A stretch of 64,000 nucleotides of DNA, taken from Marinobacter alexandrii. GTDB lineage: Bacteria; Bacteroidota; Bacteroidia; Cytophagales; Cyclobacteriaceae. Of the stretch, positions 27,129-54,700 are shown one piece after another (the stretch's first letter is position 1; each line of letters starts with the position of its first letter). The notes under the pieces are model-generated. The model ran no database searches and was not told the DNA's origin. It saw only the letters and a program-made list of their open reading frames with translations. The translations under genes and the position numbers were made by a program. The stretch covers positions 2,488,501-2,552,500 of the forward strand of contig JBDWTN010000007.1 in assembly GCA_039984955.1 (NCBI GenBank), given 5' to 3'.

Positions 27129-27721
27129 ATGACTTTAATCGTATTGCTCCCATCTATGATCAAATTGCACATTTGGTTTTTGGCGACAGATTACTAAAAG
27201 CTCAAACTCATTTCTTAGATCAAATTAAGCCGGATGATAAAGTATTAATTCTGGGTGGAGGTACGGGGGCGTTATTGGAATATTTGCCAATTTGTAAGCA
27301 AATTCATTATGTAGAAAAGTCAGATAAAATGATCCAGCGAGCTCGAAAAAGAAATAGTAAGAGCGAAGTGCAATTCATCAATCAAGATTTTTTAGCTTTC
27401 AAATCGCCAAATCAATATGATGTAATACTATGTCCATTTTTTCTTGATTGTTTTGCTGAAAGAAAACTAGAAACGGTCCTTCATAAAGTATCAGCAATGA
27501 TTGCTAAGGATGGCTGGATGATGATTGCGGATTTCGATGTTCAATCTACCTCGATTTTTTTAAGTCAAATGATGCATCTCTTTTTCAGACTTTTTGCGTC
27601 ACTTGGTTCAAGTAAACTTCTAGACATTCGGAAGCATATTGTGCGGAAGGGGTTCGATGAATCCTCACTCCAAAAATTCAAAAATGGAATTTTCAGCACT
27701 ATTTACAAAGTGGAACAGTAA
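27119..27721 (+). CDS. UbiE-like class I SAM methyltransferase
   Basis: A 200-residue cytoplasmic methyltransferase. It opens FNRIAPIYDQIAHLVFGDRL, a start typical of UbiE/quinone-type and related enzymes, then motif I VLILGGGTGALLEYL, acidic motif II (YVEKSDKMIQRARK) and a post-I block INQDFLAF, with YDVILCPFFLDCF as motif IV region. Substrate unknown. Coupling to the UbiA-like gene (10-base overlap) suggests a shared small-molecule pathway. Its 3' end overlaps the convergent kinase gene by 23 bases. Confidence 0.82.
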   Translation: MAVNDFNRIAPIYDQIAHLVFGDRLLKAQTHFLDQIKPDDKVLILGGGTGALLEYLPICKQIHYVEKSDKMIQRARKRNSKSEVQFINQDFLAFKSPNQYDVILCPFFLDCFAERKLETVLHKVSAMIAKDGWMMIADFDVQSTSIFLSQMMHLFFRLFASLGSSKLLDIRKHIVRKGFDESSLQKFKNGIFSTIYKVEQ

Positions 27722-29609
27722 AAGAAACGATCGTTCCTTTTTGAATTTTTATATCCAAAGAACCGCCATTCTTTTCTACGAAATCCTTGCACATCAAGAG
27801 ACCTATGCCTGAACCTTTTTCTTGTTCTGTGCCATTTCTTGTAAACCCTTCACCTTTGTTCAAGATTTGGACAATCATTTGATTGGTCATCCCTATTCCG
27901 CTATCTTCAATGGAGATATTTGAGAGATTATTTATGCTTCTGGCAGCTATCTTAACCTGCCCATGTTTTGGTGTGAATTTGATCGAATTATGCAGAAGAT
28001 TTCTAATCACAAATTCTAGCATATCCTTATCAGCCATTAAAATGGTATCATCAACTTCATGTTCGATCTTCAGCTTTATTTTCTTTTGCTCCAATAGGAG
28101 TGAGAAAAGCTTGACTGACTTATCAACAACTTTTCTTAGATCAATTTCTATTGGATTAAAAGTAAGATTGTCTTGTTGAAGTCTGGACCAAAGTAGAAGA
28201 TTATCCATTAATAGCGTAAGATTCTGAAGAGAAAATCGGGTTTTGTCGCTGAGGTCTGATAGTTCTTCCTGCGAGAGTTTGTTGTAGTGATTGATAAAAA
28301 GGTTGAGGTATGAATCTACAGTTGTCAAAGGGCTCTTCAGCTCATGCGATATGATGGAAAAAAGTCTTGATTTTACCTCATTTAGTTCGCGTAAGTCACT
28401 CGCAGAAATTTTAAGCTGTGTCAGGGTTTCCTCAAGTTCTTTAGTTCTTTCTGTCACCTGTTGCTCCAATTCATTCCGTTGCAGTTCGATCAGTCTTTTT
28501 TTCTCTATCTCCTTTTCACGGGCGAGTTTTTCTTTTTCAATTTTTTCACTGGCGAGCATTTTCCGAGTACGGTTGAGTCTGTCAGAAAGACCAAGAGAAA
28601 ATAAGACTACCTGCGCAACTGCGCCAATCTGAATGACATAGCGAGTAAGAAAATTATCCGGCAAATAATTCAACTCCCTGAAGATGAAAAGAATCCCACC
28701 AATATTAAATAGCGCAAACGCTACCAGAAACCATAGTGCAGGTTTGTAACCACGCAAATAAACGATTATGCTTGTCAACGTGATAGCAGTCATGGTCATG
28801 GTTCCAAGAAAACCAATAACATAGTTTGTCTCAATGAGCCAATCCCTAATTTGCAACCAGCTCATTAGCCACATACCAATCGGGACCAGATAGGAAATTA
28901 AAATCATTCGAAAGAACAGATTCCACTTGGGTACATATTGATCTGTATGAAGATATGTCTGTGTAAAAAGAATTCTACAAATGTTGGTAAAAGGTATTAT
29001 CAAAGCAAAGAAATAGGCATTCCAATGTGGATTCGAGGGCCAAAAATGCTCAAAAGTAAATCCATAGTAGAACCCCATATACAGCCCAAAACCTACAATA
29101 GAGAGCACATACCAAAGGTAACTTTGGTCTTTCACAGCGAAGTAAATCATCAGGTTATAAAGTGCCATTACGATCAGAATGCCAAAGAAGAGCCCATGAG
29201 CAAGAAGTCTCTGACGTTCTTCAAGACGCCATTCCTGTGATGTATATTCGATCGTAGTTGTTTGATCCAGCTCAAACAATGGATGTGCTCCCCGCATCTT
29301 TAATAGCAAAGTATTCTGATCTGGCTTTTCGATTATATTTCTGAAGGAGTAGTAGCTTTTTGAATGGCCAGACAGCATGGTTCCTGTCACTTGTTTTTCT
29401 TCTTCACTATATGCCACGACATGGCTCCAACCCGGCAACTCAATGTACGCCGAAGAAGAGGATAAAACTATCTCTGACCAATACCATTGATCATTTGATA
29501 TCAATGAAGAATCTGCTGGTTTTTGCAAGAGGCTATCAAGAAATAACCCTTGAGCATACATGTCTAGCCCAATAACAAGTAAACCCCCCCAAAGTATAAA
29601 TCGTCGCAT
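27699..29609 (-). CDS. 7TMR-DISM sensor histidine kinase
   Basis: A 636-residue kinase. Start chosen at ATG 29609; a TTG one codon upstream is less likely. Signal peptide (MRRFILWGGLLVIGLDMYAQ), a periplasmic domain (about 21-130), seven membrane helices (about 135-345) of the 7TMR-DISM type, a coiled coil rich in Glu/Lys (about 350-400), then HisKA with the H-box ISHELKSPLT and HATPase with N-box RNLLHNSIKF, G1 DSGIGM and G2 GSGIGLLMCKDF. The divergent LytTR regulator 68 bases away is the likely partner, and the genes beyond it are possible targets. Confidence 0.93.
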   Translation of the reverse strand: MRRFILWGGLLVIGLDMYAQGLFLDSLLQKPADSSLISNDQWYWSEIVLSSSSAYIELPGWSHVVAYSEEEKQVTGTMLSGHSKSYYSFRNIIEKPDQNTLLLKMRGAHPLFELDQTTTIEYTSQEWRLEERQRLLAHGLFFGILIVMALYNLMIYFAVKDQSYLWYVLSIVGFGLYMGFYYGFTFEHFWPSNPHWNAYFFALIIPFTNICRILFTQTYLHTDQYVPKWNLFFRMILISYLVPIGMWLMSWLQIRDWLIETNYVIGFLGTMTMTAITLTSIIVYLRGYKPALWFLVAFALFNIGGILFIFRELNYLPDNFLTRYVIQIGAVAQVVLFSLGLSDRLNRTRKMLASEKIEKEKLAREKEIEKKRLIELQRNELEQQVTERTKELEETLTQLKISASDLRELNEVKSRLFSIISHELKSPLTTVDSYLNLFINHYNKLSQEELSDLSDKTRFSLQNLTLLMDNLLLWSRLQQDNLTFNPIEIDLRKVVDKSVKLFSLLLEQKKIKLKIEHEVDDTILMADKDMLEFVIRNLLHNSIKFTPKHGQVKIAARSINNLSNISIEDSGIGMTNQMIVQILNKGEGFTRNGTEQEKGSGIGLLMCKDFVEKNGGSLDIKIQKGTIVSFTVPLCK

Positions 29610-29665
29610 CAAATGAAATTATTGATTGCAATATAAACCTGACTGATTTAGTTGTGAATTGCATT

Positions 29666-29677: not shown

Positions 29678-30406
29678 ATGTCAGATGGTAAAACCAAAGT
29701 GCTTGTAGCTGAAGATGATTTTGTAGTTGCGAAAAATCTCAGCATTACGCTAGAGGAAAGAGGCTATCATATCCTGGGTATAAACGAATCAGGAGAAGAA
29801 CTACTTCAATCTTTGAGTCAAAATCAACCTGATATCATTATTATGGATATCAATTTGGCTGGTTTGATGGACGGTGTTGAAGTCACAGCCTTGATAAAGA
29901 ATAAGACGAATATTCCGGTTTTGTATTTAACCTCGGATAGAGATCAAACAACGCTCGAACGGGCTAAATTGACAAACCCTGATGGCTATCTTATCAAACC
30001 CTTTGACGCTGATGAGTTGGTATCCGCTATTGAAATTGCCTTGCATAGGCATCATCTTTCTTCAGGTAATCAAAAGGAGGGCACAGTCGTCAGTGACTCT
30101 CACCTGTTTGTCAAAGTGAGAAATCGCCTCGAAAAAGTGATGTTTGAAGATGTAAGGTATCTGGAGGCGAATGACATTTATTCCATACTTGTCACTCATC
30201 AAAACAATTTCATACTTAGCTATTCGCTTAAAACTCTGGAAGAGAAGTTACCTAGTCGTCAATTTATGAGAGTGCACAGGTCTTACATTGTAAATGTGGA
30301 GCATATCAATGCGATAGAAGATAATTATATTCTGATTTCAGATAAGAACATTCCCATCGGGAAAACCTATCGGGAGGATTTAATGAGGCGATTATCAATA
30401 ATTTGA
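29678..30406 (+). CDS. LytTR-family response regulator
   Basis: A 242-residue regulator: receiver domain with E12-D13-D14, phospho-acceptor D57 (IIIMDINLAG) and switch/lysine region (YLTSDRD, YLIKPFDADEL), then a LytTR DNA-binding domain (about 140-240; YLEANDIYSILVTH, FMRVHRSYIVNVEH). It is divergent from the 7TM kinase. The transporter and esterase locus begins 188 bases downstream on the same strand, making it a candidate regulator of that locus; this is inference from position. Confidence 0.93.
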   Translation: MSDGKTKVLVAEDDFVVAKNLSITLEERGYHILGINESGEELLQSLSQNQPDIIIMDINLAGLMDGVEVTALIKNKTNIPVLYLTSDRDQTTLERAKLTNPDGYLIKPFDADELVSAIEIALHRHHLSSGNQKEGTVVSDSHLFVKVRNRLEKVMFEDVRYLEANDIYSILVTHQNNFILSYSLKTLEEKLPSRQFMRVHRSYIVNVEHINAIEDNYILISDKNIPIGKTYREDLMRRLSII

Positions 30407-30594
30407 AAATTCAAAAAAATAGACCGAATTAGCAAGCTATTTTGACGCTTTTATAAAAATCGGGGATTTTATTGGAGATTTTCCTTTTACCACGACAATA
30501 CCAACGTTCACCTAAAAAAAAGCATCCTTCACCAGTATTCATTTTTAATAACCCATTTCTAAGTAAAAATTGGAGCTTGTAAAAGCGAAAATCA

Positions 30595-32091
30595 ATGGCT
30601 TCTGAGAGTTTTACGGGATATGTATGGATTGCAATTGGTGCCTATATGGCTTTGATTTTGTATTTTGTGATTAGAGGAGCAATCAAAACCAAAAATATTT
30701 CAGATTATGCGCTGGGCAATATTGCTTTCTCACCTATAGCAGTAGGGTTAGCTCTGGCAGCATCGATGACTAGCGCCGCAACATTCATAATCAATCCCGG
30801 ATTTATAGCGTATTACGGCATAAGTGGATTCATTTCATTCGGGCTAGTTCTTTCCTTTGCTTCCCTCTTTTCATTGATCATTATTACAAAAGGGTTTCGA
30901 AAAATAGGTGCTTCGGTGGAGGCGCTTACTATGGCACAGTGGATTGGAAATAGATATCAAAACAAGTACTATGCATTATTTTTTGGTTTTGTTTCATTAT
31001 TACTTGTAACATTCATTGTTCTAATCTGTGTAGGCCTGAGCAAGCTTTTATCCAAAGCACTTAATGTGGATGAAGTAGTGGTGCTGATATCTGCCATCAT
31101 TTTTGTATTTGGATACATGATGTTTGGGGGTGCCAATTCCATGGTTTACACTAACATGGTTCAGGCTTCATTGATGATCATTGTAGCGTTTATTTTACTT
31201 ACCTCAGGTGCGGAGCATTTTGAAAATGGCATATCAGGTTTCCTTGCCAAGCTTAACGCCATTGATCCAGCACTTTCGCAGACGCGGAATAGCGGGAGTC
31301 CTTTATTCAGAGACTATTTTGAGATCATTTTTTGTCAAGTAGTTGTAGGTATTGCCATAGTCTGTCAGCCGCATATTATTACGAAATCACTTTTGCTGAA
31401 AAATGATAAACAAGTCAACACTTACCTTATCGTAGGCGTAGTTGTAGAATCTCTCTTTTTTCTCGTGGTTTTTGCAGGTTTGTACGCAAGGCTGGAATTT
31501 CCGGATCTTACAGTAGATGGCAGTCTGCTTAGCCTTGATGGAGTACTTTCCGCATATGTGGTTAAGAAATTCACAATTGGTATTGGCGTGATAGTAGTGA
31601 TGGGATTAATCTCCGCTGGCCTTTCCACATTGGAAGGCTTAATCCAGAGCTTAAGCACAACAATTACGCAAGATGTAATTCAGCCAATCTTTGGGGAACT
31701 CAGGATTCAACCGGTCATTCTTAATAGATTAACAATCGTTTTTCTTGCTGGAATTTCCGGTGTATTCAGCTATCAGCAGCTTGTGGCACCTGATTTGAGC
31801 GTAGGTATTTTTGCTCAAAATGGTGTCTACGCATATTTTTCTGCGGCTTTTGTACCCGTGTTATTTGGAACATTTATGAAGCGAATGCCTTTATATGTTC
31901 CATTCACAAGTTCCACTGCAGCCATTTTTATTCACTTTTCGGTGTACTATGGAAGACTCACACCCTACATGCAAGAAGAAATAAGAAACCCGGCGATAGC
32001 ATCTACCATGGCTATTTTAGGTTCATTAGTCATTGGCCTGATACTTTTTGCCTTTGCAAAATCAAAAGAACGAAAGGTCTCGATTGTATGA
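30595..32091 (+). CDS. sodium:solute symporter family (SSS) transporter
   Basis: A 498-residue inner-membrane transporter with about 13 helices of the LeuT-like SSS family: AASMTSAATFIINPGF early (about residues 59-74), GGANSMVYTNMVQASLM (about 178-194) and GLISAGLSTLEGLIQSLSTT near helix 8 (the Ser/Thr sodium site). Family substrates include monocarboxylates, sugars, proline and pantothenate; the substrate here is not readable. Its stop overlaps the next start by 4 bases (ATGA), so it belongs to the following hydrolase-receptor-activation operon, where import of a carboxylic acid would make sense. Confidence 0.88.
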   Translation: MASESFTGYVWIAIGAYMALILYFVIRGAIKTKNISDYALGNIAFSPIAVGLALAASMTSAATFIINPGFIAYYGISGFISFGLVLSFASLFSLIIITKGFRKIGASVEALTMAQWIGNRYQNKYYALFFGFVSLLLVTFIVLICVGLSKLLSKALNVDEVVVLISAIIFVFGYMMFGGANSMVYTNMVQASLMIIVAFILLTSGAEHFENGISGFLAKLNAIDPALSQTRNSGSPLFRDYFEIIFCQVVVGIAIVCQPHIITKSLLLKNDKQVNTYLIVGVVVESLFFLVVFAGLYARLEFPDLTVDGSLLSLDGVLSAYVVKKFTIGIGVIVVMGLISAGLSTLEGLIQSLSTTITQDVIQPIFGELRIQPVILNRLTIVFLAGISGVFSYQQLVAPDLSVGIFAQNGVYAYFSAAFVPVLFGTFMKRMPLYVPFTSSTAAIFIHFSVYYGRLTPYMQEEIRNPAIASTMAILGSLVIGLILFAFAKSKERKVSIV

Positions 32092-33020
32092 AAAAATTGA
32101 TAATCATATTAACTATTACTTCAAGTCATATTTTATCTGCTCAAGATGATGAAATGATACCCTCATATAAATACAACACAGAAAAAGTCACTATCTCAGA
32201 AGGAATCGAATTGGCCTATGTAAATGAGGGCCCCCAAGATGCTCCGGTGATACTCATGGTTCATGGCTTGGGTGGTTACATCAAAAATTGGTACCCCACC
32301 ATTGATGGTTTGAAAGAGACCTACCGATGCATTGCTTTGGATCTTCCCGGATATGGTCAGTCCACAATTCGCGACTTTGAGAAAGAAGACTACATGCAGT
32401 TCTTTGCCAACTCAGTGAATGAATTTGCCGAAAAGCTTGAGCTCAATAAAGTGATTCTGATGGGTCATTCCATGGGAGGTCAGGTAAGTATTGTGATGGC
32501 ACTACAAAACCCAAAATGGCTGGAACGACTAATCTTGGCAGCTCCTGCTGGTTTTGAAACCTTCACAGAAGCTGAAGGTACTTTATTGAAGCAGTTCTCA
32601 ACAGCTTCTGCATTGATGAGTCATACGGAAGAGCAAATTTATGCAGCCTATCAGGCCAATTTTGTGAGCATGCCTGCTTTGGCGGAAGAAATGATACAGG
32701 ACAGATTAAAAGCAAAGGAGGCGATGTGGTTTGCAGACTATGCGCTTATAAGAGAAATGGGAGTCAAAGGAATGCTTAGGCACTCGGTGAAAGAAGATTT
32801 ATCTAAGATTAAAATACCTACGGTGGTGCTGTTCGGGAAGAATGACTTTTTGATTCCAAATAAATACCTACATCCCAGTTTAACAACTAGTCAAATTGCA
32901 GAAATAGGAAAAGAAATACCAAATGTAAAAATTAAATTGATTGAAACGGCCGGGCACATGTTGCAAATGGATAACCCGACCAGCTTCAATCTTGCTGTTA
33001 AACAATTGCTAACATATTAA
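32088..33020 (+). CDS. exported alpha/beta hydrolase
   Basis: A 310-residue protein with an N-terminal signal peptide (about 1-19, ending ILSAQ) and an alpha/beta-hydrolase fold: oxyanion region HGLGGYIKNW, nucleophile S128 in GHSMGGQ, acid in FGKNDFLIP and catalytic His in TAGHMLQMD. Probably a periplasmic esterase or lipase-like enzyme. Placed between the symporter (4-base overlap) and the TonB receptor (4-base gap), it could cut imported oligomers or esters before transport across the inner membrane. Specificity is inferred from context only. Confidence 0.88.
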   Translation: MKKLIIILTITSSHILSAQDDEMIPSYKYNTEKVTISEGIELAYVNEGPQDAPVILMVHGLGGYIKNWYPTIDGLKETYRCIALDLPGYGQSTIRDFEKEDYMQFFANSVNEFAEKLELNKVILMGHSMGGQVSIVMALQNPKWLERLILAAPAGFETFTEAEGTLLKQFSTASALMSHTEEQIYAAYQANFVSMPALAEEMIQDRLKAKEAMWFADYALIREMGVKGMLRHSVKEDLSKIKIPTVVLFGKNDFLIPNKYLHPSLTTSQIAEIGKEIPNVKIKLIETAGHMLQMDNPTSFNLAVKQLLTY

Positions 33021-33024
33021 AGTT

Positions 33025-35481
33025 ATGAAAAACTTGTACTTAAACATTTTGTTTTCTCTTCTTTCGATGGCATTATTCGCCCAGAAAGGGAGTATTACCG
33101 GAACAGTTACTGATAGCAGTACCGGTGAAAAATTGATTGGAGCTAACATAGTTGTAAAAGGAACTCTCAACGGAGATGTCACCGACATAAATGGAAAATT
33201 TAGCATAGGAAGTCTATCAGATGGTTCATATATCATAGTAGTAAGTTACGTGGGCTATGAAGCACAGGAGCAGTCCGTTACCGTAAGCGGATCGGTAGCT
33301 ACTGTTGATTTTCAACTTATAGAGGGAACCGTTTTTGGTGAAGAAATAGTGGTCTCCGGTACCCGAAGGCCTGAAAAGATCACCGAGTCTCCTGCGACTA
33401 TCGAGGTAATCTCTAAAAAGGACCTGGAAAACTGGGGTTCATTTAATACCGGTGAGTTACTGTCTAGACTGAAAGGTGTGGATTACGTACGTTCTGGAGT
33501 AGTGGGAACGGGCATTAACGTTCGAGGATTCAATAGCAATTTCAATGCAAAAAATACTCAGGTGACAGACGGTCGCTTTTCTAGCCTCGTTGCAACAGGA
33601 TTGCCATTTGGACCATTAAGTCCTCAAATAAAGGAAGACATTGAGCGTGTTGAAGTTATTCTTGGACCAAACTCTGCACTCTACGGACCCAATGCTCATA
33701 ATGGATTGGTAAATATCATCACCAAGGATCCAAGATCCTCACAGGGGACAACCTTCGCCTTAGGCGCTGGGAATCAAGGTGTTTTTACTGCACGTGGTAG
33801 ACATGCTCAAGTACTGAACAATAAGTTTGCCTTCAAGCTGAATTTTGAATATACAAGGGGTGAAGAATTCCAGTTTGCAGATTCAGTTTACATCGATCGA
33901 ACAGATAACGCAGGCAATGGTGGGCCAGACGGGATCAAAGAAGGTTACGAAGAGCTGGACCTAAACAATGACTTTGAATTCTTCAAAGGAGGTGCAAGTC
34001 TTTACTATACGCTAAACGATGACTCAGACGTGATCTTTTCATATGACGCAAGCAATAGCACATATCTTTCACCAACCAACGTGGGACGAAATGAAATCGT
34101 AGATTGGAAAATTCAAACCTTTCACCTTAGATATGTATCACCTAGAATTTTTGCCCAGGCCTATCTTAGTCTAAGTGATACAAGGGATACACACTCATTA
34201 GACGATCGAACAAAAGCATATTATGTAGCCTTAGATGGAGGAGCAACACCTGAGCAGGCATTTGCTACATCTCTTGATGGCGGAGCGCGGTTCATAGACG
34301 ACTCTAAACGATGGAATGGCGAAGTACAATATAACAATACATGGGGAAACTTCAGCTTTGTAACCGGAGTACAGTATCAGAGAGACATGGCAAACTCACA
34401 TGGAACTTACCTTTTAGATGAAGATGAGAATGATTTCATCACAGTAGATCAAGTTGGATTGTATGGTCAGGGACAATACAACATTGGAAAAGGGTTTAAA
34501 GGAACAGTTGCTGTAAGAGCGGACAATCATGAAGTTTATGGATTCAATTTTGTGCCTAAGGTAGGTTTCACCAAGACGATAAAAAGTGGAACCTTCCGAG
34601 CAACTTATGGTCAGGGAGTTGCAGCTCCAACTATTCTCAACATGTATGGTGACTTGTTTGGCGGCTTGATTCTTGGAAACGCCGAAGGGTTTACGTTAGC
34701 AGATGGATCGTTAGTTGAAAAACAATCAATAGAAAAACTTCAAACCTATGAAGTAGGCTATAAGGGATCTATTGGATCAAAAAAATTGTATGCAGATGTA
34801 AACGCTTACTACAATATTTCTGAAGACTTCTTAAGCCCAGTTACAGTAGTAGGTGTTACCACACAAAGAGGATCGACTCCAATTGATGAAGTACAATCAG
34901 CTTTTGGCGTATATGGAGGTTTGGTTGCTACATATGTGAACTTTGGTAAGTTAAACACCTATGGGTTTGATGTCGGACTAAACTACCTTCTAAACAAAGA
35001 CATCACGCTTGATTTCAATTACTCATACTTTGACTATCCTATAGATGAAAATGACTTAGAGAATGACTTTGACGGAGATGGTACAGTTACTAAGCTGGAT
35101 GTTTTGGTAAATGCGCCTAAAAACAAGGCAAGCTTTGGAGTCAACTATAGCAAAAACAAAATCTTCGGAAACGTATTTGTCCGCTGGGTACAAGAGTATG
35201 ATTACTTTTCGAGTTTCCAAATTGCTGCGGCCACTCAGGACCTTACCTATAGAGGAACGCCAATCGTAGAAAATGAGCGAAGCACCGATTCATTTAACTA
35301 TGGACCATTGGCTGGATTTGTGAACGTAGACCTGGGATTTGGGTATAAGATCACCGATAACTTCACAGGGTCCGTTGCTGTCACCAACCTGTTTGACAGT
35401 GAATATCGAGAATTTACCGCATCACCATTTATAGGAAGACTCTACAGTGTGGAGTTGAGAATGAATATTCCAAATAAATAA
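33025..35481 (+). CDS. TonB-dependent receptor with carboxypeptidase-regulatory-like N-domain
   Basis: An 818-residue outer-membrane receptor: signal peptide (to about 19), CarboxypepD_reg-like domain (about 22-108; GSITGTVTDSSTGEKLIGAN), plug (about 120-230; PATIEVISKKDLENWGS, RVEVILGPNSALYGPNAHNG), and a 22-strand-type barrel ending with SVELRMNIPNK. It has no SusD partner, so it is not a SusC-type glycan receptor pair. It takes up a ligand using TonB energy. Context (secreted esterase, periplasmic hydrolase, acyl-CoA ligase) suggests ester oligomers or acids as the cargo; that is inference. Confidence 0.93.
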   Translation: MKNLYLNILFSLLSMALFAQKGSITGTVTDSSTGEKLIGANIVVKGTLNGDVTDINGKFSIGSLSDGSYIIVVSYVGYEAQEQSVTVSGSVATVDFQLIEGTVFGEEIVVSGTRRPEKITESPATIEVISKKDLENWGSFNTGELLSRLKGVDYVRSGVVGTGINVRGFNSNFNAKNTQVTDGRFSSLVATGLPFGPLSPQIKEDIERVEVILGPNSALYGPNAHNGLVNIITKDPRSSQGTTFALGAGNQGVFTARGRHAQVLNNKFAFKLNFEYTRGEEFQFADSVYIDRTDNAGNGGPDGIKEGYEELDLNNDFEFFKGGASLYYTLNDDSDVIFSYDASNSTYLSPTNVGRNEIVDWKIQTFHLRYVSPRIFAQAYLSLSDTRDTHSLDDRTKAYYVALDGGATPEQAFATSLDGGARFIDDSKRWNGEVQYNNTWGNFSFVTGVQYQRDMANSHGTYLLDEDENDFITVDQVGLYGQGQYNIGKGFKGTVAVRADNHEVYGFNFVPKVGFTKTIKSGTFRATYGQGVAAPTILNMYGDLFGGLILGNAEGFTLADGSLVEKQSIEKLQTYEVGYKGSIGSKKLYADVNAYYNISEDFLSPVTVVGVTTQRGSTPIDEVQSAFGVYGGLVATYVNFGKLNTYGFDVGLNYLLNKDITLDFNYSYFDYPIDENDLENDFDGDGTVTKLDVLVNAPKNKASFGVNYSKNKIFGNVFVRWVQEYDYFSSFQIAAATQDLTYRGTPIVENERSTDSFNYGPLAGFVNVDLGFGYKITDNFTGSVAVTNLFDSEYREFTASPFIGRLYSVELRMNIPNK

Positions 35482-35503
35482 ATATAGGTTGTTCAATGCA
35501 AGG

Positions 35504-35530
35504 ACCGATGGCACTACAGTTATCGGTTTT
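35504..35530 (+). promoter_or_regulatory. hairpin with short T run between receptor and SDR genes
   Basis: ACCGAT / ATCGGT (35504-35509 and 35522-35527) form a 6-bp stem with a 12-base loop, followed by TTTT. It is too weak for a confident terminator, but lies in the only sizeable gap (61 bases) inside the receptor-SDR-KAS-ligase run and could reduce read-through or mark an mRNA end. Confidence 0.35.
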
Positions 35531-35542
35531 CAATAAAATTTT

Positions 35543-36271
35543 ATGAAAAGACTTGAAGGTAGAATAGCCATTATTACTGGTGGCTCAAACGGAATTGGGA
35601 AAGCAACCTGCAAAAAATTTGCAGCTGAGGGTGCTAAAGTCCTCATATGGGACTTAAATGAAGAAGCTGGAGATCAACTGGCGAAAGAGCTTGACGGCCA
35701 TTTCGAAAAGGTAGACACGGCCGATTATGATGCAGTGAAGAAAGCCACCGCCAACACAGTTTCAAAATATGACAAGATTGATATTCTGGTTAACAATGCG
35801 GGCATCACACGAGATGCAACCTTAAAAAAAATGACATCAGAGCAGTGGAAACAGGTGATAGATGTAAACCTCACAGGAGTATTCAATTGCGGGAAACACG
35901 TTCAAGAATACATGGTAGAAGCGGGTTATGGCAGAATTATAAATACCTCTTCTGTAGTAGGAATCTATGGAAATTTCGGGCAAACTAACTATGTAGCCAC
36001 GAAAGCAGGAGTTATTGGAATGACCAAAGTATGGGCAAGAGAGTTAGGTAGGAAAGGGATTACTGTCAATGCAGTAGCACCTGGATTCATTGCAACAGAT
36101 ATGGTAATGGCAATGCCTGAAAAAACCATTGATATGATGCAGTCCAAAGTTCCAACTGGAACACTGGGAAGACCAGAAGACATAGCTAATGCTTATTGTT
36201 TCCTGGCTTCTGGTGAAGCTGGATACATCAATGGAGCTACAATTAGTGTGGATGGTGGAATGACAGTATAG
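35543..36271 (+). CDS. FabG/PhaB-like short-chain dehydrogenase
   Basis: A 242-residue SDR. NAD(P)-binding TGGSNGIG (12-19), NNAG (84-87), catalytic S137, Y150 and K154 (TSSVVGIYG, NYVATKAG), and the C-terminal GYINGATISVDGGMTV of the 3-oxoacyl-(ACP/CoA) reductase group. It reversibly reduces 3-oxoacyl to 3-hydroxyacyl thioesters, or oxidises 3-hydroxy acids. The absence of an adjacent fabD/acpP/fabF cluster and the tight link (2 bases) to the KAS III-like gene and acyl-CoA ligase argue for a catabolic or accessory role rather than housekeeping FabG. Confidence 0.88.
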   Translation: MKRLEGRIAIITGGSNGIGKATCKKFAAEGAKVLIWDLNEEAGDQLAKELDGHFEKVDTADYDAVKKATANTVSKYDKIDILVNNAGITRDATLKKMTSEQWKQVIDVNLTGVFNCGKHVQEYMVEAGYGRIINTSSVVGIYGNFGQTNYVATKAGVIGMTKVWARELGRKGITVNAVAPGFIATDMVMAMPEKTIDMMQSKVPTGTLGRPEDIANAYCFLASGEAGYINGATISVDGGMTV

Positions 36272-36273
36272 AT

Positions 36274-37263
36274 ATGAGAAACGCAAAGATTATATCTACA
36301 GGAATGTATGTTCCGGAGAACATTATTCCTAATAGTTATTTCGATGAAATTCTCGGAGAGAATGTGTCAGAATGGTTGGAAGCCAATGTGCACATACGCA
36401 ATAGGCGTTGGTGTTCAGATAATCAGTCAACAGCTAATTTGTGTGGAGAAGCTGCCAAGATCAACCTTAAGCGAGCAGGACTAAGACCAGAAGATATTGA
36501 TTTGCTGATTGTATGCACAGATACTCCGGAATATATCTCACCGTCAACAGCATCAAAAGTTCAGCATCGAATGGGTATGACGAATGCAGGTACTTTCGAT
36601 CTTAACTCCGCTTGTGCCGGCTTTGTCATTGGATTGGATACGGCTGTTAAGTATATAAAGGCTGATGAGAACTATACCAATGTGATGGTAATAGGAGCCT
36701 ATGCTATGAGTAAATATCTCAATGAGCTAGATAAGAAAACATGCAATCTGTTTGCCGATGGAGCGGGTGCAGTTATCCTTTCTTTAACAGATGACGAAAA
36801 TGAAGGCTATCTCGCGAGTGAACTTAGAACAAAAGGTGAATATTGCGATTGGATGGGAATATATGCGGGGGGAACACATCAGCCGGTAACTAAAGAAGTT
36901 GTTGAAAATAATGACCATCTGCTAAAGTTTGTCAAACGATTTCCTTCAGAGTTAAATCCGGATGTTTGGTCAGATATGGCACGAACACTAGCCAGTCGCT
37001 CAGCCACTAAGATTGAAGAAGTAGATCAATTTATATTTACTCAAATCAATATTAATAGTATTTGGGCCACTCTTGAGAAACTGGATATTTCCAGAGACAA
37101 AGCACATACTGTAATGCATGAATACGGATATACCGGTTCTGCCTGCATCCCGATGGCACTAGATGAAGCGGTCCAGCTGGGGAAAGTGAAGAAAGGAGAT
37201 CTCATCTATTTTATTGGTTCAGGTGGAGGTTTAGCTTTTGCAAGTGCGGCATTTAGATTTTGA
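36274..37263 (+). CDS. KAS III (FabH)-like thiolase-fold protein with altered active site
   Basis: A 329-residue protein of the FabH/KAS III fold. The nucleophile C114 is present in DLNSACAGFVIG. The other two triad residues are not: the PHQAN histidine position reads FTQIN (T256), and the GNTSAA asparagine position reads GYTGSA (Y286). Flanking sequence (CIPMALDEAVQLGKVKKGD) aligns well, so this is substitution and not misreading. Decarboxylative condensation needs His and Asn, so acyl transfer, thioester hydrolysis or another reaction is more likely. It sits 2 bases after the SDR and 3 before the ligase. Confidence 0.85.
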   Translation: MRNAKIISTGMYVPENIIPNSYFDEILGENVSEWLEANVHIRNRRWCSDNQSTANLCGEAAKINLKRAGLRPEDIDLLIVCTDTPEYISPSTASKVQHRMGMTNAGTFDLNSACAGFVIGLDTAVKYIKADENYTNVMVIGAYAMSKYLNELDKKTCNLFADGAGAVILSLTDDENEGYLASELRTKGEYCDWMGIYAGGTHQPVTKEVVENNDHLLKFVKRFPSELNPDVWSDMARTLASRSATKIEEVDQFIFTQININSIWATLEKLDISRDKAHTVMHEYGYTGSACIPMALDEAVQLGKVKKGDLIYFIGSGGGLAFASAAFRF

Positions 37264-37266
37264 CCT

Positions 37267-38766
37267 ATGAACTTTCGAAAAGATTGGATGGATAGATGGG
37301 CAACATATGCTCCAATTAAAATGGCAGTAAATGATGCGGATACGGGAGAGAATTATACCTATCAGCAATTAAACAGTCAATCCAATTACCTTGCCCAAAG
37401 CCTCGAAGAAATGGGGCTAACTAAAGGTGATCGGGTGGCGGTACTTTCGGAGTATCGATTGGAATATATTGTCTTGCTTGGTGCTGCTATGAAGCTTGGA
37501 ATCACCATCGTCCCGCTCAACTATCGACTGTCTTCCAGGGAACTTGCCTACATGATCAATAATTGTGAACCTAAGCTAATTGTAAGTGAAGAGAAGTATG
37601 AGAACCTATATAGTCCAGAGCTCATAGAATGTGATATTCAAAGCGTCATATTAATGGATGAGTTTGCTTCTGATTTAAGTAAAAAAATAAACGTCTCCTA
37701 TACATATGAAGCGAAAGAAATAGAAGATGATCATCCACTTTTTATCATTTATACTTCGGGAACTACAGGATTCCCTAAGGGAGCTATTTATACACATAAA
37801 ATGGCTTTTTGGAATGCTGTTAACACACAGGCCAGGCTCGATCTTACGTCAAGAGATCATACCATAATCTGTATGCCCCCATTTCACACAGGAGGATGGA
37901 ATGTTCTGCTCATGCCATTTCTACTGCAAGGAGGATCGTTTACGCTTTTAAGAAAATTTGATGCGAGCATTGTAATGAAGCTTTTGGGAGATGAGGAGGC
38001 AACCCTTTTCATGGGAGTTCCCACCATGCTGAAAATGATGTCAGAGGTACCCGAGTTTGAAAGTATCTCACTTGATTCTCTCAGATACTTCATTGTAGGC
38101 GGAGAAGCTATGCCACTCCCCTTAATTCAGCAGTGGCAGAAAAAAGGCACTCCAATCCGACAAGGCTTTGGACTGACTGAGGTAGGACCAAATGTTTTCT
38201 CACTTCATCAAGATGATGCTATTAGAAAAATAGGCTCAATAGGGACACCTAATTTCTTTATTGAAACTAAACTTATGAAAAGTGATGGAACGGAGGCAGA
38301 TGCAAATGAGGAGGGTGAACTCTGGCTTAAGGGGCCTGTAACCACTCCAGGTTATTGGGAAAATATTGAAGCAACTCTAAAATCTTTTACAGAAGGTTGG
38401 TTCAAAACAGGTGATATTCTAGTTAGGGATGAGGGGGGATATTACTTCGTCAAGGACAGGATCAAGAATATGTTTATTTCTGGAGGAGAGAATGTTTATC
38501 CTGCCGAGGTAGAACGCTTCTTGCAGACTCATCCTGAGATAAATGAGGTAGCAGTGATAGCTATTCAAGATGATAAGTGGGGTGAGGCAGGAAAAGCGAT
38601 CATTATAAAGAAAGATACATCCCTTTCTAAGGATCTTGTCATCCATTTTTGTAAGGGGAGTCTTGCAAAATATAAAATACCGAAGGAGGTGGAGTTTGTG
38701 ACTGAGCTTCCTAAAACTGCTAGCGGAAAAATCGATAGAAAGAAACTAAAAGCATCCTATGCATAA
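37267..38766 (+). CDS. acyl-CoA synthetase (AMP-dependent ligase)
   Basis: A 499-residue ANL-superfamily ligase. Motifs: P-loop IIYTSGTTGFPKGA (about 157-170), GFGLTEVGPN (about 299-308), the hinge DRIKNMFISGGENVYPAEVE (about 398-417) and the catalytic lysine in KTASGKIDRKKLK near the C-terminus. Such enzymes activate a carboxylic acid to acyl-AMP and then acyl-CoA in the cytoplasm. It is 3 bases after the KAS III-like gene. The acid may be medium-chain, 3-hydroxy or aromatic; sequence alone does not decide. Confidence 0.92.
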   Translation: MNFRKDWMDRWATYAPIKMAVNDADTGENYTYQQLNSQSNYLAQSLEEMGLTKGDRVAVLSEYRLEYIVLLGAAMKLGITIVPLNYRLSSRELAYMINNCEPKLIVSEEKYENLYSPELIECDIQSVILMDEFASDLSKKINVSYTYEAKEIEDDHPLFIIYTSGTTGFPKGAIYTHKMAFWNAVNTQARLDLTSRDHTIICMPPFHTGGWNVLLMPFLLQGGSFTLLRKFDASIVMKLLGDEEATLFMGVPTMLKMMSEVPEFESISLDSLRYFIVGGEAMPLPLIQQWQKKGTPIRQGFGLTEVGPNVFSLHQDDAIRKIGSIGTPNFFIETKLMKSDGTEADANEEGELWLKGPVTTPGYWENIEATLKSFTEGWFKTGDILVRDEGGYYFVKDRIKNMFISGGENVYPAEVERFLQTHPEINEVAVIAIQDDKWGEAGKAIIIKKDTSLSKDLVIHFCKGSLAKYKIPKEVEFVTELPKTASGKIDRKKLKASYA

Positions 38767-38868
38767 GTTCCGCCTCGGATAATACTGTTTTCTCATCTTT
38801 TGAATTGAATGAAGGCGCGTAAATCCTTATTCTATGGAAACAACATTTTAACCCTAAATAATACAATT

Positions 38869-41118
38869 ATGAAGAAAAAATTGATTCTCTTAATAGGTAT
38901 GGCATGCTCATTCCTATCTAGTGCTCAACTTACCCAAGTAAATGGTTTCGGGTCGAACCCGGGAAATCTTGATATGTACATTTATGTACCGTCCGGGATA
39001 GGTTCGGATGCGTCGGTGGTTCTGGTAATGCATGGTTGCACACAAAACGCTAGTTCTTACTCAAATGATTCTGAATGGAATGATCTGGCTGATGAGTACA
39101 AATTTTATGTGATATATGCTGATCAACCATCTTCTAATAATTCCTCGAACTGCTTCAACTGGTTTGAAAATGGAGATCAAAATAGAGGTGTTGGAGAAGC
39201 CGCTTCCTTAAAAAGCATGGTGGACTACATGAAGTCGAACTATTCTATTGACAATGATAAAGTGTTTGTTGCTGGTTTTTCTGCTGGAGGTGCCATGACT
39301 ACAGTTATGCTTGCAGCATATCCGGAAGTATTTAGTTCAGGTGCTGTTATGTCAGGACTACCCTATGATGTAGCTACCGGGACAATTGAAGCTTTCCAAG
39401 CCATGTTCGGTAATGTCAATCTTTCTCCTGCACAACTAGGCAACAATGTAAGAAATGCATCCAGTTACTCAGGCTCATGGCCTACGGTAGCTGTATTTCA
39501 TGGTGGATCAGATTTTATTGTTTATACCGTCAATGAGACGGAAATTATGGAGCAATGGACAAATGTTCATGGTATTGATCAAACACCAGAACTGGACGAT
39601 CAAGCATATTTAGGAAATGCTAATGTTCGGAAAAGGGAGTATAAAGATAACTCTGGAAATGCTCGGGTAGTCACCTACAGTTTTAATGGAATGGGTCATG
39701 CTATTGCGGTAGATCCGGGAGCAGGACCTACTCAAGGAGGAAATACAGGATCTTATGCCACAGATATCAATTTTTGGTCTTCATATTATGCTGCTGAGTT
39801 TTTCGGTATTCTAGATGCAAGTACCAGCTTGGACGCTCCAACCGCCATTACCGCTTCAGCTAACTCGTTCTCTCAAATTGATCTGAATTGGACTGATAAC
39901 GAGACTAATGAGACTGGCTATATTGTGGAAAGAGCTGGAAATGCCAATGGGCCATTCACTACAATTGCTAACTTGGGTATTAATGCTACGACTTACAGTG
40001 ATACAGGGCTCGATCAATTGACAACTTACTTTTATCGAGTCTCCGTGACAAATGTAACATCCACTGCATCAGGAAATATTGTAAATGAGACTACTCCATC
40101 TGATGGAACACCTACTCCACCAGCCTCACCATCAGATTTGAATGCTACCTCTAATGGCCTCACTTCCATTAATTTGTTGTGGGATGATAATTCAAATAAT
40201 GAAGAATTTTTTATTCTGGAAAGATCGGAAGAAGATGAATCGAATTATACTGAAATAGCCGTAATATCGAGCAATACCACCTCCTATACGGATCAAGGGT
40301 TAATAAGTGCCACTACATACTTTTACCGAATAAAAGCTCAAAATGCTGTCGGAGTTTCACCTTACTCCTCTTCTGTCAGTGCTTCTACTGATAACGAGGT
40401 AACTCTTCAGACGATTGAACAAACATCCGGTTCAGGTATTCTAAGCTATTTCAACTTTAACGATATGGGACAATCATTCACTCCATCGTTTAGTGGAGAG
40501 ATCGTTTCAATAGATGTTAATTTAGTTAATACGATTTCAGGATCTACCCTGAGAATTTTCTCAGGGAATACGGTTTCCGGAACTCCAATTTATGAGCAGT
40601 CTAATATCTCTGTAGGAAGCGGATGGCAAACAGTTTCTTTAAGTAATCCTCTCACGATACAAAATGGACAGCAGTACACTTTCCAGTTGACAAATGCTTC
40701 TATTAGATATAGTTTTACTGACATTTATAGCGGAGGGAACTTTTGGTACAATAGTATTTCATATTCAGTTTTTGATGCTGCTTTTATCGTTACAACAAGC
40801 TCGAATTCTGGAGCACGCACCAGTTCCAATCAACCTAATCTTCAAAATCAAAAAATTGTTTCTGATTTTGAGGATAGTAAACCATTAGAAGCAAATGTAT
40901 ATCCCAATCCTTCTCAGAATGAAATTGTAGTTGAGTTTAATGAATCATCATTAATTAGATGGATAGAGGTTTTTGGTATCGATGGGAAAAAGTATTTAAA
41001 CATTGAGACACAAAACAAGAGGGAGAGGCTAGACTTATCCACCTTTGGTAGTGGGATCTTTCTTATTAAAGTAAGTGATGCGAAGCAATCGATATTTAAG
41101 AAAGTTATAGTGAAATGA
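38869..41118 (+). CDS. secreted PHB-depolymerase-family esterase with FN3 domains and T9SS sorting domain
   Basis: A 749-residue secreted enzyme; ATG 38869 gives signal peptide MKKKLILLIGMACSFLSSAQ, while an ATG at 38809 would bury it. Residues 30-315 form an Esterase_phd domain: HGCTQ (H55-C57), CFNWF (95-99), RGVGEAASL, nucleophile S138 in GFSAGG, D215 in HGGSDF and H277 in GMGHA. Two fibronectin III domains follow (about 321-408, 417-507), then a beta-sandwich, possibly substrate-binding (about 511-645), and a type A T9SS sorting domain (about 675-749; EANVYPNPSQNEI, ending IFKKVIVK). FN3 linkers are usual in extracellular PHB depolymerases; acetylxylan and feruloyl esterases share the fold. 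Confidence 0.92.
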   Translation: MKKKLILLIGMACSFLSSAQLTQVNGFGSNPGNLDMYIYVPSGIGSDASVVLVMHGCTQNASSYSNDSEWNDLADEYKFYVIYADQPSSNNSSNCFNWFENGDQNRGVGEAASLKSMVDYMKSNYSIDNDKVFVAGFSAGGAMTTVMLAAYPEVFSSGAVMSGLPYDVATGTIEAFQAMFGNVNLSPAQLGNNVRNASSYSGSWPTVAVFHGGSDFIVYTVNETEIMEQWTNVHGIDQTPELDDQAYLGNANVRKREYKDNSGNARVVTYSFNGMGHAIAVDPGAGPTQGGNTGSYATDINFWSSYYAAEFFGILDASTSLDAPTAITASANSFSQIDLNWTDNETNETGYIVERAGNANGPFTTIANLGINATTYSDTGLDQLTTYFYRVSVTNVTSTASGNIVNETTPSDGTPTPPASPSDLNATSNGLTSINLLWDDNSNNEEFFILERSEEDESNYTEIAVISSNTTSYTDQGLISATTYFYRIKAQNAVGVSPYSSSVSASTDNEVTLQTIEQTSGSGILSYFNFNDMGQSFTPSFSGEIVSIDVNLVNTISGSTLRIFSGNTVSGTPIYEQSNISVGSGWQTVSLSNPLTIQNGQQYTFQLTNASIRYSFTDIYSGGNFWYNSISYSVFDAAFIVTTSSNSGARTSSNQPNLQNQKIVSDFEDSKPLEANVYPNPSQNEIVVEFNESSLIRWIEVFGIDGKKYLNIETQNKRERLDLSTFGSGIFLIKVSDAKQSIFKKVIVK

Positions 41119-41120
41119 TT

Positions 41121-41154
41121 AAAAAAAGCCCTTCAATTAATGAAGGGCTTTTTA
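41121..41154 (+). terminator. strong intrinsic terminator after the esterase gene
   Basis: AAAAAGCCCTTCA pairs with TGAAGGGCTTTTT (41123-41135 and 41141-41153), a perfect 13-bp stem with a 5-base loop, A-rich before and T-rich after. It starts 2 bases after the esterase stop and closes the locus that began at 30595. Confidence 0.95.
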
Positions 41155-51786: not shown

Positions 51787-54700
51787 ATGAAAGGTATTCT
51801 TTGTCTGATTTGTTTGGGTTTAGGTTTTTCGGTACTAGCACAGATAAACTCTTTCCCCGAAAATGAAGGTTTTGAAGACTCTTTCGTAGAAGGATCCGAT
51901 ATTGAGTTTGTTACTAATTGGATTGGTAATACTGTGGCATCTACAAATCGAATTTTTCAAACGAGTGATTTTAGAACAGGAGCAAATGCCTTAGCAGTCC
52001 AACCAATAACTAGTTTTGATGGGGAGATCTTGATTACTCTGAATTTAACAGGTTTTGAAGACTGTGAAATTAATTTTTATGCTAAATCAAACCAAAATGG
52101 CTCTGGAAATAGGTCAGCTTTAGTCTTTTTCTCAACCTCCATTGATGGAGGAATGAATTACGGAACTCCAATACAAATTGGAGATGAAAGCACATTTCCT
52201 AACTTACCCGGACAGTCCTATAACCAATACTCCTACACGCTTGATGCCGTCTCAGATAATCAATCTAATGTATTTGTGAAATTATTTGTAGAAAGAAATG
52301 AAACTGGTTCTGGTAGTGCTGCTGAATTTTTGATTGATGATGTCGAAATAATAGCAGACCCTTTAACAGACTCAGATCCCCCCACTATTCAATCGGTGAC
52401 GGCTATCTCATTAACAGAAGTAGATGTCAAGTTCAATGAAAGTGTTGATGTGACGACCTCACAGAATTCAAATAATTATGGAATTGATGGCGCTATTGAC
52501 GTAACCAATGCAGTAGTAGATGGAATTGACAATTCGATCGTGCACTTGACCACTGATGCATTGACAAATGGCACAACTTACGCTATCACCATTAATAATG
52601 TAGAAGATGAGAATGGAAATATAATTGCTTCAAATAGTCAGGAGAGCTTCCAATACCTGGTTTTTGAAGAAGCGGAAGAATTCGATGTGGTGATTAATGA
52701 ATTCATGCCGGATCCTAATCCAGTAGTCACAACCTTGCCGGATGCAGAGTATGTAGAATTATTTAATAGATCGTCCAAGTACTTTAATTTGGAAAACTGG
52801 TCGTTGGATGGAGAAAGCTTGCCAGTGTTTACATTGGCCCCTGGAGGATATGTCATTATCGTAGACGATGATGACTTAGGGTTGTTTAGTGGCTTCTCGA
52901 ATGTGCTGACCATTAGTTCATTCAGCTTAAATAATTCTACAGTAGATAATATTTCCCTACTAGATGATAATGCCACCACTATTCATGCAATTTCCTTTGT
53001 AGGATCTACAGGAGGAGTATCCACAGAACTTATCAACCCCAATGGTCCTGATTATTCGCAAAACAATTTTGGATTGAGCATTGATCCAGATGGAGGGACG
53101 CCCGGAGAACAAAACTCGATCTTTGACGATACACCAGATACCACAGCTCCACAAATAGAATCTATCAATGTGATTTCTATGACAGAACTTGATGTTACGT
53201 TTAGTGAAGTACTGGAAGAATCGTCAGCTGAAACAAGTGCCAACTACTCGATAGATGGAGGAGTCTCCATAAATGCTGTTGCATTAGATGACATGGATGG
53301 GAGTTTGGTTCATATAGTTGTTAGTCCACTAGTTTCGGGCGAAGTAAGAACTTTGTCAGTCAATGATGTGCAGGATCTATCAGCTAATTCAGCTTCTGAT
53401 ACAGAACCGTTTGAATATTTAGAAACTGAAGAAGCTGTTGCAGGAGATGTCGTCATCAATGAATTTCTATCTAATCCAGTAAACAATAGCGACGATTTTA
53501 TAGAGTTATTCAACAACTCTGAGAAGTTTATAGACGTGGAAGGTTGGAACATCATAGATGCTTCGGATACTTCTAATAACCTTCCTTCATTTATCATTCG
53601 ACCGGGGGAGTATTTGATTGTTTATGATGATGGATCAACGATAGATTATGCTGCATTTGGAAACGCACTAACAATCTCAAGTCTCACACTCAACAACTCA
53701 GATGATCAAATAGAAATTGTTAATGGATCAGATAATCAAATTGCTTTCATAGCGTATGAAGATGAGCAAGATGATGGGGTTTCATTAGAACTGATTAATC
53801 CTGATGATCCTTGCTTATCACTTGACAGCTACTCTACTTCGATAGACCCATCAGGTAACACTCCCGGTAGTCAAAATTCTGTTTTTGATGATACTCCAGA
53901 TACTGAAGCCCCAACGGTGAGCTCCTTTGGCTATTCCACATCCTTAGCCATCAACTTCTCAGAAAAGATGGATGCTTCCAGTTTAATGACAGGTGAATAT
54001 ACTGTTTCAGGAGGGTTAACAATCGATGATATCATAATCAACGGTGATTATCCAACCTCGATAAATGTGGTATTCATACAGGGAATAGAGAAAGGAATTA
54101 TTTACCAGTTTACCCTCTCAGATGTGAGCGATTGTGCAGGTAATGCGATAGTAGAAACAACTTTTAGTTTTAGCATGGGAAGAGCTCCTTCTTTCAACGA
54201 AGTGTTTATTACAGAAATCCTATTTGATCCAGATCCATCTGTTGGTCTGCCAGAGGTTGAATTTCTTGAAATTCATAATATCGCCGGAGATGTGATATCC
54301 ACAGAAGGAATGTTTTTAATCGATGCAAGTTCCACTGTTGAATTGCCATCAATTAACCTGCAACCAAAATCATACACTATCTTAACATCAACTGCAGGAG
54401 CTAATGAATTCACTCAAGGCGCAGTTGGAATATCGAATTTTCCCTCACTAAATAATACAGGAGAACAACTCATTTTGACATTTCAAGAGAGTCTTATCTC
54501 TTCTATCGATTATGATCCTGCCTGGCACGAAGACTCTAAGTCTGATGGAGGTTATTCATTAGAAATGGTTGACATTACAAATCCCTGCACTGCAAGCGGA
54601 GCAAACTGGAATAGTTCTATCAATCTGAATGGAGGAACACCTGGGGCTGTAAATTCAATTAACAATGAAGGAAGTGTTCCTGACAATCTAGGTCCAGAAC

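Follow-up and report, generated by a model that had tools for sequence, protein, structure and literature searches.

A putative polyhydroxybutyrate utilisation locus on a recurring gene cassette in Marinobacter alexandrii

Gene content of the operon

Seven open reading frames (ORFs), all in one orientation, occupy positions 30595–41118 (+ strand) of a 64,000-nucleotide stretch of DNA (the window) from Marinobacter alexandrii (Bacteroidota; assembly GCA_039984955.1). The window corresponds to positions 2488501–2552500 of contig JBDWTN010000007.1, in a genome of 4.88 Mb. The operon encodes, in order, a solute:sodium symporter (SSS)-family protein, an exported α/β hydrolase, a TonB receptor, a short-chain dehydrogenase/reductase (SDR), a β-ketoacyl-acyl carrier protein synthase III (KAS III)-like protein, an acyl-CoA ligase and an exported esterase. 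Spacings along the operon are −4, 4, 61, 2, 3 and 42 bases, the last becoming 102 if the esterase begins at its signal-peptide methionine (38869). An earlier note on this DNA had given the same coordinates and described seven co-oriented genes with a 4-base overlap or gaps of 2–102 bases; the ORFs and spacings agree, the figure of 102 presupposing the start at 38869. Its family assignments were returned for all seven products by Pfam and NCBIfam scans. As argued below from gene content and comparison across genomes, the locus probably serves the utilisation of polyhydroxybutyrate (PHB), a short-chain polyhydroxyalkanoate (PHA).

The esterase gene (38809–41118, + strand, likely start 38869) would encode a type-1 PHA depolymerase with export of the type IX secretion system (T9SS) type. 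Its product scored 305.3 bits on NF050058, the NCBIfam model of type-1 extracellular short-chain-length PHA depolymerases (cut-off 150), a model that also passes proteins at about 150–180 bits, possibly other esterases, and that at E ≤ 0.001 matched 267 of 291 genomes in an order-level sample, evidently via generic α/β hydrolases. On TIGR01840 the score was 233.7 bits (cut-off 107.9). The Pfam architecture was Esterase_PHB, fn3 and Por_Secre_tail, with a catalytic domain (residues ~47–332), Fn3-like repeats (339–530), a conserved domain (526–690) and a sorting tail (697–769). The hydrophobic, signal-type N-terminus ends in SSAQ, and T9SS cargo signals were found (TIGR04183, 43.9 bits, cut-off 23; Por_Secre_tail, 43.5 bits, cut-off 27). 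Fn3-type repeats followed by a C-terminal accessory domain are the general plan of type-1 PHA depolymerases, and the esterase has a like layout. Residues 526–690 were 44–73% identical in the 10 homologues long enough to include them, and in the esterase gave only a weak DUF4082 match (26 bits, cut-off 28.4). The homologues at loci L065 and L066 consist of the catalytic domain alone, without the sorting tail, and two others end at a contig edge.

Among solved structures, the best match to the esterase was 8daj (174 bits), with a feruloyl esterase at 124 bits and an acetylxylan esterase at 123 bits. Both 8daj and 9byu are LtPHBase, which hydrolyses PHB (PMC11544428). In an alignment of seven sequences including the esterase, alignment positions Ser120, Asp197 and His259 were invariant, and they correspond by alignment to Ser121, Asp197 and His270 of LtPHBase. 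The catalytic domain and the Ser/Asp/His enzyme class are common to the esterase, LtPHBase and type-1 short-chain-length PHA depolymerases. The esterase differs from LtPHBase (a 302-residue chain) in its sorting tail and its conserved accessory domain, and its gene lies within an uptake and catabolic operon. PET27 and PET30, known Bacteroidota enzymes that hydrolyse polyesters, likewise end in a Por domain but are of the PETase type, and neither TonB nor gene cluster appears as a term in the main text of their source (PMC8767016). In the host genome, the esterase was the sole Esterase_PHB match at E ≤ 0.001, and PhaC_N had no match at the same threshold. The host would therefore probably not make PHB via that enzyme family, and the polymer would probably be foreign.

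The KAS III-like gene (36274–37263, + strand) encodes an ACP_syn_III-family protein. The predicted structure of this protein (pLDDT 87) had the FabH fold (2ebd, TM-score 0.88), and the sequence passed PRK09352 narrowly (253.4 bits, cut-off 249) and failed TIGR00747 (226.2 bits, cut-off 292.1). Catalytic site positions were taken from alignments to solved FabHs. Across 107 aligned orthologues, which include some genomes present under two names, Cys114 was found in 107; the FabH His position was Thr256 in 106 and Ser once, and the FabH Asn position was Tyr286 in 107. The fold and catalytic Cys are thus those of FabH, but His and Asn are replaced by Thr and Tyr, while three other FabH proteins of the host (TIGR00747, 372–381 bits) retain Cys-His-Asn. 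Given the roles that these two residues are known to play, their loss makes a FabH-like decarboxylating condensation unlikely. The KAS III-like assignment of the earlier note stood for the fold and the Cys, and had overlooked the loss of His and Asn. A second KAS III-like protein (L072:4367–5389 and relatives, nine loci; PRK06840, 447 bits, cut-off 315) was seen between the ligase and a lipoprotein gene in some cassettes.

The SDR (35543–36271, + strand), which we propose to be an NAD-dependent (R)-3-hydroxybutyryl-CoA dehydrogenase, is FabG-like: it scored 293.8 bits on the FabG model (cut-off 296) and 264.5 bits on the acetoacetyl-CoA reductase model (cut-off 302.1), and its best solved match was 4nbu (294 bits). 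Ser137, Tyr150 and Lys154 of the SDR, and Ser128 of the hydrolase, singled out in the earlier note, were kept in at least 95% of aligned orthologues. Asp37 was present in 92 of 93 SDR orthologues, and Asp at this position generally favours NAD in SDRs. The cofactor determinants of a PhaB are placed between residues 37 and 41 (PMC8904767). The ligase (37267–38766, + strand; AMP-binding, 274 bits) is AMP-forming and a candidate 3-hydroxybutyryl-CoA synthetase; its best solved matches were FadD13 (321 bits) and a feruloyl-CoA synthetase (306 bits).

Transport would be served by the symporter and the TonB receptor, with the hydrolase between them. For the SSS-family symporter (30595–32091, + strand; SSF, 104 bits), proposed to take up 3-hydroxybutyrate (3HB), every substrate-specific model stayed below its cut-off. 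The α/β hydrolase (32088–33020, + strand; Abhydrolase_1) has a signal-type N-terminus ending in SAQ and is proposed to cleave oligomers in the periplasm. Its best solved match, covering residues 31–159 at 83.5 bits, was 8ynv, named as a poly(3-hydroxybutyrate) depolymerase. By a crude hydropathy rule, 83 of 101 orthologues had an export-type N-terminus, compared with 0 of 8 for a second hydrolase type (ABH2). The TonB receptor (33025–35481, + strand; Pfam barrel, plug and CarbopepD_reg_2), a putative oligomer importer, scored 102 bits on the SusC model (cut-off 368), and no SusD was found among the operon ORFs; the description of a TonB receptor without SusD in the earlier note was accurate.

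Recurrence of the cassette and distribution of the depolymerase

A recurring cassette comprises five of these genes, for the symporter, the exported hydrolase, the SDR, the KAS III-like protein and the ligase. A phylum sample of 395 genomes had KAS orthologues (E ≤ 1e-60) in 57, the order sample of 291 in 14 and a family sample of 196 in 25; a scan of named genomes gave at least 80 KAS loci. Carriers among the matches listed included Lewinella, Phaeodactylibacter, Maribacter, Arenibacter, Robertkochia and Lentimicrobium, as well as Ignavibacteria, Chlorobi, Kapaibacteria and a KSB1 bacterium. A contig titled as a Thalassovita (Alphaproteobacteria) metagenome-assembled genome (L191) also bore the cassette; its KAS fell among Bacteroidota in the tree, and the contig is probably mis-binned. 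Of 128 KAS-labelled loci, 9 repeated a KAS sequence and 17 had under five labelled genes; the other 102 were retained. Among these KAS-chosen loci, the ligase was present in 98, the hydrolase in 95, the SDR in 92, an SSS symporter in 90 and a thiolase in 26, where a label counts any family member within a stretch of up to ~20 kb. The SDR directly adjoined KAS in 69 of the 102, and the ligase lay within three genes in 98. Of 121 loci mapped, 14 had no KAS-labelled ORF; 4 had been found by the depolymerase search and 10 by KAS searches, the gene in the latter probably having been lost through ORF calling or the cluster threshold. Since identical families recur together in about 100 loci, the gene grouping exceeds chance. 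The earlier note had named lack of conserved co-occurrence in relatives as a refuting result; the co-occurrence was conserved.

Pairwise identities of KAS, ligase and SDR were moderately correlated over 80 loci (Spearman 0.37–0.59), so that genes may have been swapped between cassettes. Several replacements match a step: an SCP2-type thiolase for KAS (G803), a CoA-transferase for the ligase (G254) and a major facilitator superfamily (MFS) carrier for SSS. The G254 replacement, a CoA-transferase-family protein at the ligase position in a genome with a distant KAS (38%), fits a role in acid activation. Thiolases of the acetyl-CoA acetyltransferase type also recur in cassettes. A protein of ~470 residues with weak tetratricopeptide repeat (TPR) matches, often divergent beside the SDR or between the hydrolase and TonB receptor, was noted in 34 loci (L187:225–1619 and relatives).

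A TonB receptor was present in 50 of the 102 loci and a protein of ~515 residues in 47, with both in 1 and neither in 6. The latter occurs with an adjacent lipoprotein (L085:14565–16112, L168:14880–16427 and relatives; 55 mapped loci). Neither Pfam nor NCBIfam gave a match to the one representative of the ~515-residue protein that was scanned. Two representatives of the lipoprotein were scanned as well: one was without a match and the other had carboxypeptidase-regulatory domains (Pfam). An AlphaFold model of the ~515-residue protein (pLDDT 77) contained 18 long strands by our own count, with AlgE as best fold match, followed by OprD/Occ-type porins (TM-score 0.43–0.56 by query length). It seems, from the model and the distribution, that a channel-like barrel and the TonB receptor are interchangeable as the outer-membrane route. 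Where a KAS locus had a depolymerase in the stretch, the receptor was present in 8 of 8, and otherwise in 42 of 94 (p = 0.0024); an independent-pairs test of the same relation had too few pairs for an outcome.

Depolymerase and KAS were associated across genomes in tests that ignore relatedness. In the family sample, 10 genomes carried a depolymerase (E ≤ 1e-55), and KAS was present in 9 of them, compared with 16 of the 186 others (Fisher p = 2e-8); counted by genus, the figures were 6/7 and 9/77 (p = 8e-5). In the order sample, with depolymerases called above 230 bits, a threshold placed in the gap between 174 and 238 bits after that sample had been seen, KAS was present in 5/6 and 9/285 genomes, respectively (p = 7e-7). 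The phylum sample at the curated cut-off gave 8/18 and 49/377 (p = 0.0016). On a KAS tree (FastTree, 119 rows), the depolymerase occurred in 13 rows and required at least 9 changes, 6 of them forced by well-supported branches, which suggests that depolymerase gains or losses recurred. Named-contig rows were scored as negative unless the depolymerase was in the stretch; when these rows were uncounted instead, 9 changes were still obtained.

Individual genomes illustrate the arrangement. The nearest relative found, G785 of the same genus, has the arrangement of the window including both flanks, without the depolymerase. In G785 the place of the depolymerase is taken by an ORF of 133 codons (L229:14502–14903), whose SpoIIAA-like match is weak (22.8 bits, cut-off 25). 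In G803 (82% completeness), which has a depolymerase and lacks KAS, a kinase, regulator, SSS symporter, TonB receptor, ligase, thiolase-family protein (PRK07516, 400 bits, cut-off 412), SDR and depolymerase stand in a row; the depolymerase, at the end of a contig, is matched in part. In the Kapaibacterium G562, a depolymerase shares a contig with a TonB receptor, two ligases, an MFS carrier and a chemoreceptor. Two hydrolases on that contig had the NCBIfam model of intracellular PHA depolymerases as best match, at 117 and 80 bits against a cut-off of 300. KAS and SDR lie at the end of another contig, and we infer that the two contigs (C5 and C76) adjoin. The chemoreceptor (L225:14682–16730) has a Cache domain, perhaps for chemotaxis to products. 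On these comparisons, the broader cassette carries the depolymerase as an optional module.

Proposed pathway and alternative readings

The genes present, their conservation and co-occurrence, signals of the export type and the change in the KAS site are observed; for the substrate, each reaction, the transport directions and regulation, we infer the following scheme. The exported depolymerase would cut the polymer outside the cell, and soluble 3HB oligomers would be imported by the TonB receptor and cleaved in the periplasm by the exported hydrolase. The acid would then be taken up by the sodium-type symporter and converted by the ligase to (R)-3-hydroxybutyryl-CoA, which the FabG-like SDR would oxidise with NAD+ to acetoacetyl-CoA. 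Either the KAS III-fold enzyme or a host thiolase would yield two acetyl-CoA. Cassettes without a depolymerase would scavenge oligomers or monomers. The proposal in the earlier note of a system for a polyester such as PHA, modelled on a polysaccharide utilisation locus (PUL), gains comparative support from the depolymerase model score, the PHB-hydrolysing best match and the conserved cassette.

For the KAS III-like protein itself, we propose a thiolase-like step on acetoacetyl-CoA. Thiolysis is suggested by pathway logic and by the thiolase-family protein of G803, which, in the absence of KAS, stands between ligase and SDR. It is quite possible, if somewhat short of probable, that the protein is instead an acyltransferase, moving for example an acyl group between CoA and another carrier, in this PHB pathway or a different one. 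Such a role would suit a site that has kept Cys and lost His and Asn, and a separate thiolase stands alongside KAS in 26 of 102 loci, so that KAS is not simply a thiolase replacement and acyl transfer or another role may apply. The G803 arrangement speaks against an acyltransferase, as does the operon, in which no acceptor is evident.

Several observations weigh against the PHB reading as a whole. A depolymerase is linked in 8 of the 102 loci and missing from the other 94; G014 carries one without KAS, and in G682 and G796 depolymerase and KAS are both present but unlinked. The association tests take no account of relatedness, and the 230-bit threshold was post hoc. The thiolase alongside KAS in those 26 loci counts here too, as do three thiolases elsewhere in the host. 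Hydrolase scores on PHA depolymerase-like models were 80–117 bits (cut-off 300), and ligase and symporter matches were unspecific as to substrate. LtPHBase, the best solved esterase match, is promiscuous, acting also on polylactic acid and polycaprolactone (PMC11544428). The scarcity of linked depolymerases, this promiscuity and the best solved ligase match, a fatty-acyl ligase, would all suit a cassette for other hydroxy- or oxo-acid esters (longer PHAs, other polyesters or lipid-derived esters), with the depolymerase a partial or opportunistic feeder. We regard this as unlikely, given that the depolymerase repeatedly joined or left cassette-bearing lineages, that the cassette is present in 9 of the 10 family-sample genomes with a depolymerase, and that acetyl-CoA acetyltransferase-type thiolases recur.

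Plant-type esters (feruloyl or acetyl), which the earlier note had kept as the alternative substrate class, with the operon handling the released acids, were outranked by PHA. Feruloyl and acetylxylan esterases do belong to the same fold family (123–124 bits), and a feruloyl-CoA synthetase was the second-best solved ligase match (306 bits). Against this, the depolymerase model was passed far above its cut-off, the best solved esterase match is a PHB hydrolase, no carbohydrate-active enzyme is among the operon families, and SDR, KAS and thiolase are left unexplained, an SDR and thiolase(-like) enzymes not being obviously needed for a feruloyl or acetyl ester. We consider this substrate class very improbable. 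The combination of KAS, hydrolase, ligase and SDR in one operon is also that of OleABCD, which makes long-chain olefins or β-lactones and has an OleA-type KAS with Cys-His-Asn. An OleABCD-like set was rejected, and we give it hardly any credence: the KAS site is Cys-Thr-Tyr, the hydrolase is export-type in 83 of 101, importers and a depolymerase lie within the set, and FabH chains matched KAS at 178 bits, compared with 78–79 bits for solved chains that we take to be OleA.

Utilisation of PHB by this locus would follow the logic of Bacteroidota PULs, namely an enzyme at the surface, import through a TonB receptor, hydrolysis in the periplasm, transport across the inner membrane and a linked regulator. 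The locus differs from PULs in having no SusD in the operon, a receptor under the SusC cut-off, no glycan enzymes and a polyester as the proposed substrate class. Classical PHB and 3HB catabolism proceeds through BdhA, an acetoacetyl-CoA transferase or synthetase, and thiolase. The end point, acetoacetyl-CoA and acetyl-CoA, would be the same, but here CoA activation by the ligase would precede oxidation by a CoA-level SDR.

The depolymerase, the transport families, PUL logic and Por-tailed Bacteroidota polyesterases are already known. To our knowledge, the passage of PHB fragments over the Gram-negative outer membrane is poorly defined. Searches of open-licence papers turned up no description of a polyester locus of this combination, of a depolymerase-optional cassette or of a Cys-Thr-Tyr KAS clade. 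TonB and periplasm are absent from the main text, as far as available, of a 2026 review of soil PHA degradation (PMC13372988), and the available parts of PMC7889595, PMC13070388 and PMC10882806 held nothing decisive for the locus. Tentatively, and with less confidence than in the PHB reading, we suggest a wider picture: a bioplastic locus within a cassette widespread in Bacteroidota and neighbouring phyla, built around a new KAS III-fold class (Cys-Thr-Tyr) that may perform a reverse Claisen reaction on acetoacetyl-CoA. At the outer membrane, a TonB receptor and an unclassified, AlgE/OprD-like barrel of 18 strands, with its lipoprotein, would be interchangeable. The majority of carriers may scavenge 3HB or oligomers released by others, with repeated gain of the depolymerase giving rise to primary degraders. 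The cassette supplies candidate parts for every step of PHB utilisation. It also offers a testable enzyme activity, an outer-membrane family without a Pfam or NCBIfam match (one representative scanned) and, in the Cys-Thr-Tyr KAS III, a sequence marker for possible PHB-oligomer users in genomes.

Flanking and minor features

Two candidate regulators lie upstream of the operon: a 7TMR-DISM sensor histidine kinase (27699–29612, − strand; Pfam 7TMR-DISM_7TM, HisKA, HATPase_c) and a LytTR response regulator (29678–30406, + strand; Response_reg and LytTR). Kinase homologues stand beside the cassette in G785, G691, G694, G682 and G803. The best matches of the regulator are beside the cassette in G785 (86%), G701 (63%) and G691, G694 and G682 (42–44%), as well as in G803; in G701 the stretch stops short of any kinase position. 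Four same-genus genomes without KAS had LytTR regulator paralogues of only 33–36%. The pair probably belongs to the locus and controls the operon; the earlier note had left these two genes out. No kinase or regulator match was found beside the cassette in the carriers G740, G796, G253 and G268, and at the locus of other carriers there is repeatedly a MarR-like gene or a TPR protein. Since regulators differ among carriers, regulation would vary.

The intergenic region 30407–30594 (+ strand), presumed to hold the promoter, contains blocks conserved with G785. A promoter scan gave 28 sites, fewer than in shuffles (mean 38.5), and its result was not used. Downstream, an intrinsic terminator (41123–41153, + strand; 13-bp stem, −18.3 kcal/mol, z = −5.9) ends the operon as the earlier note had claimed: 0 of 200 shuffles were equally stable on folding. 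A simple terminator scan did not return it, probably because part of the T tract pairs within the stem, and folding was decisive.

Two further genes in the window were noted. Positions 51787–55824 encode a protein of 1345 residues with four lamin-tail-domain stretches and matches to Big_5 and FlgD_ig, and positions 60572–63892 encode a glutamate synthase large subunit whose N-terminal part seemingly lies past the window end.

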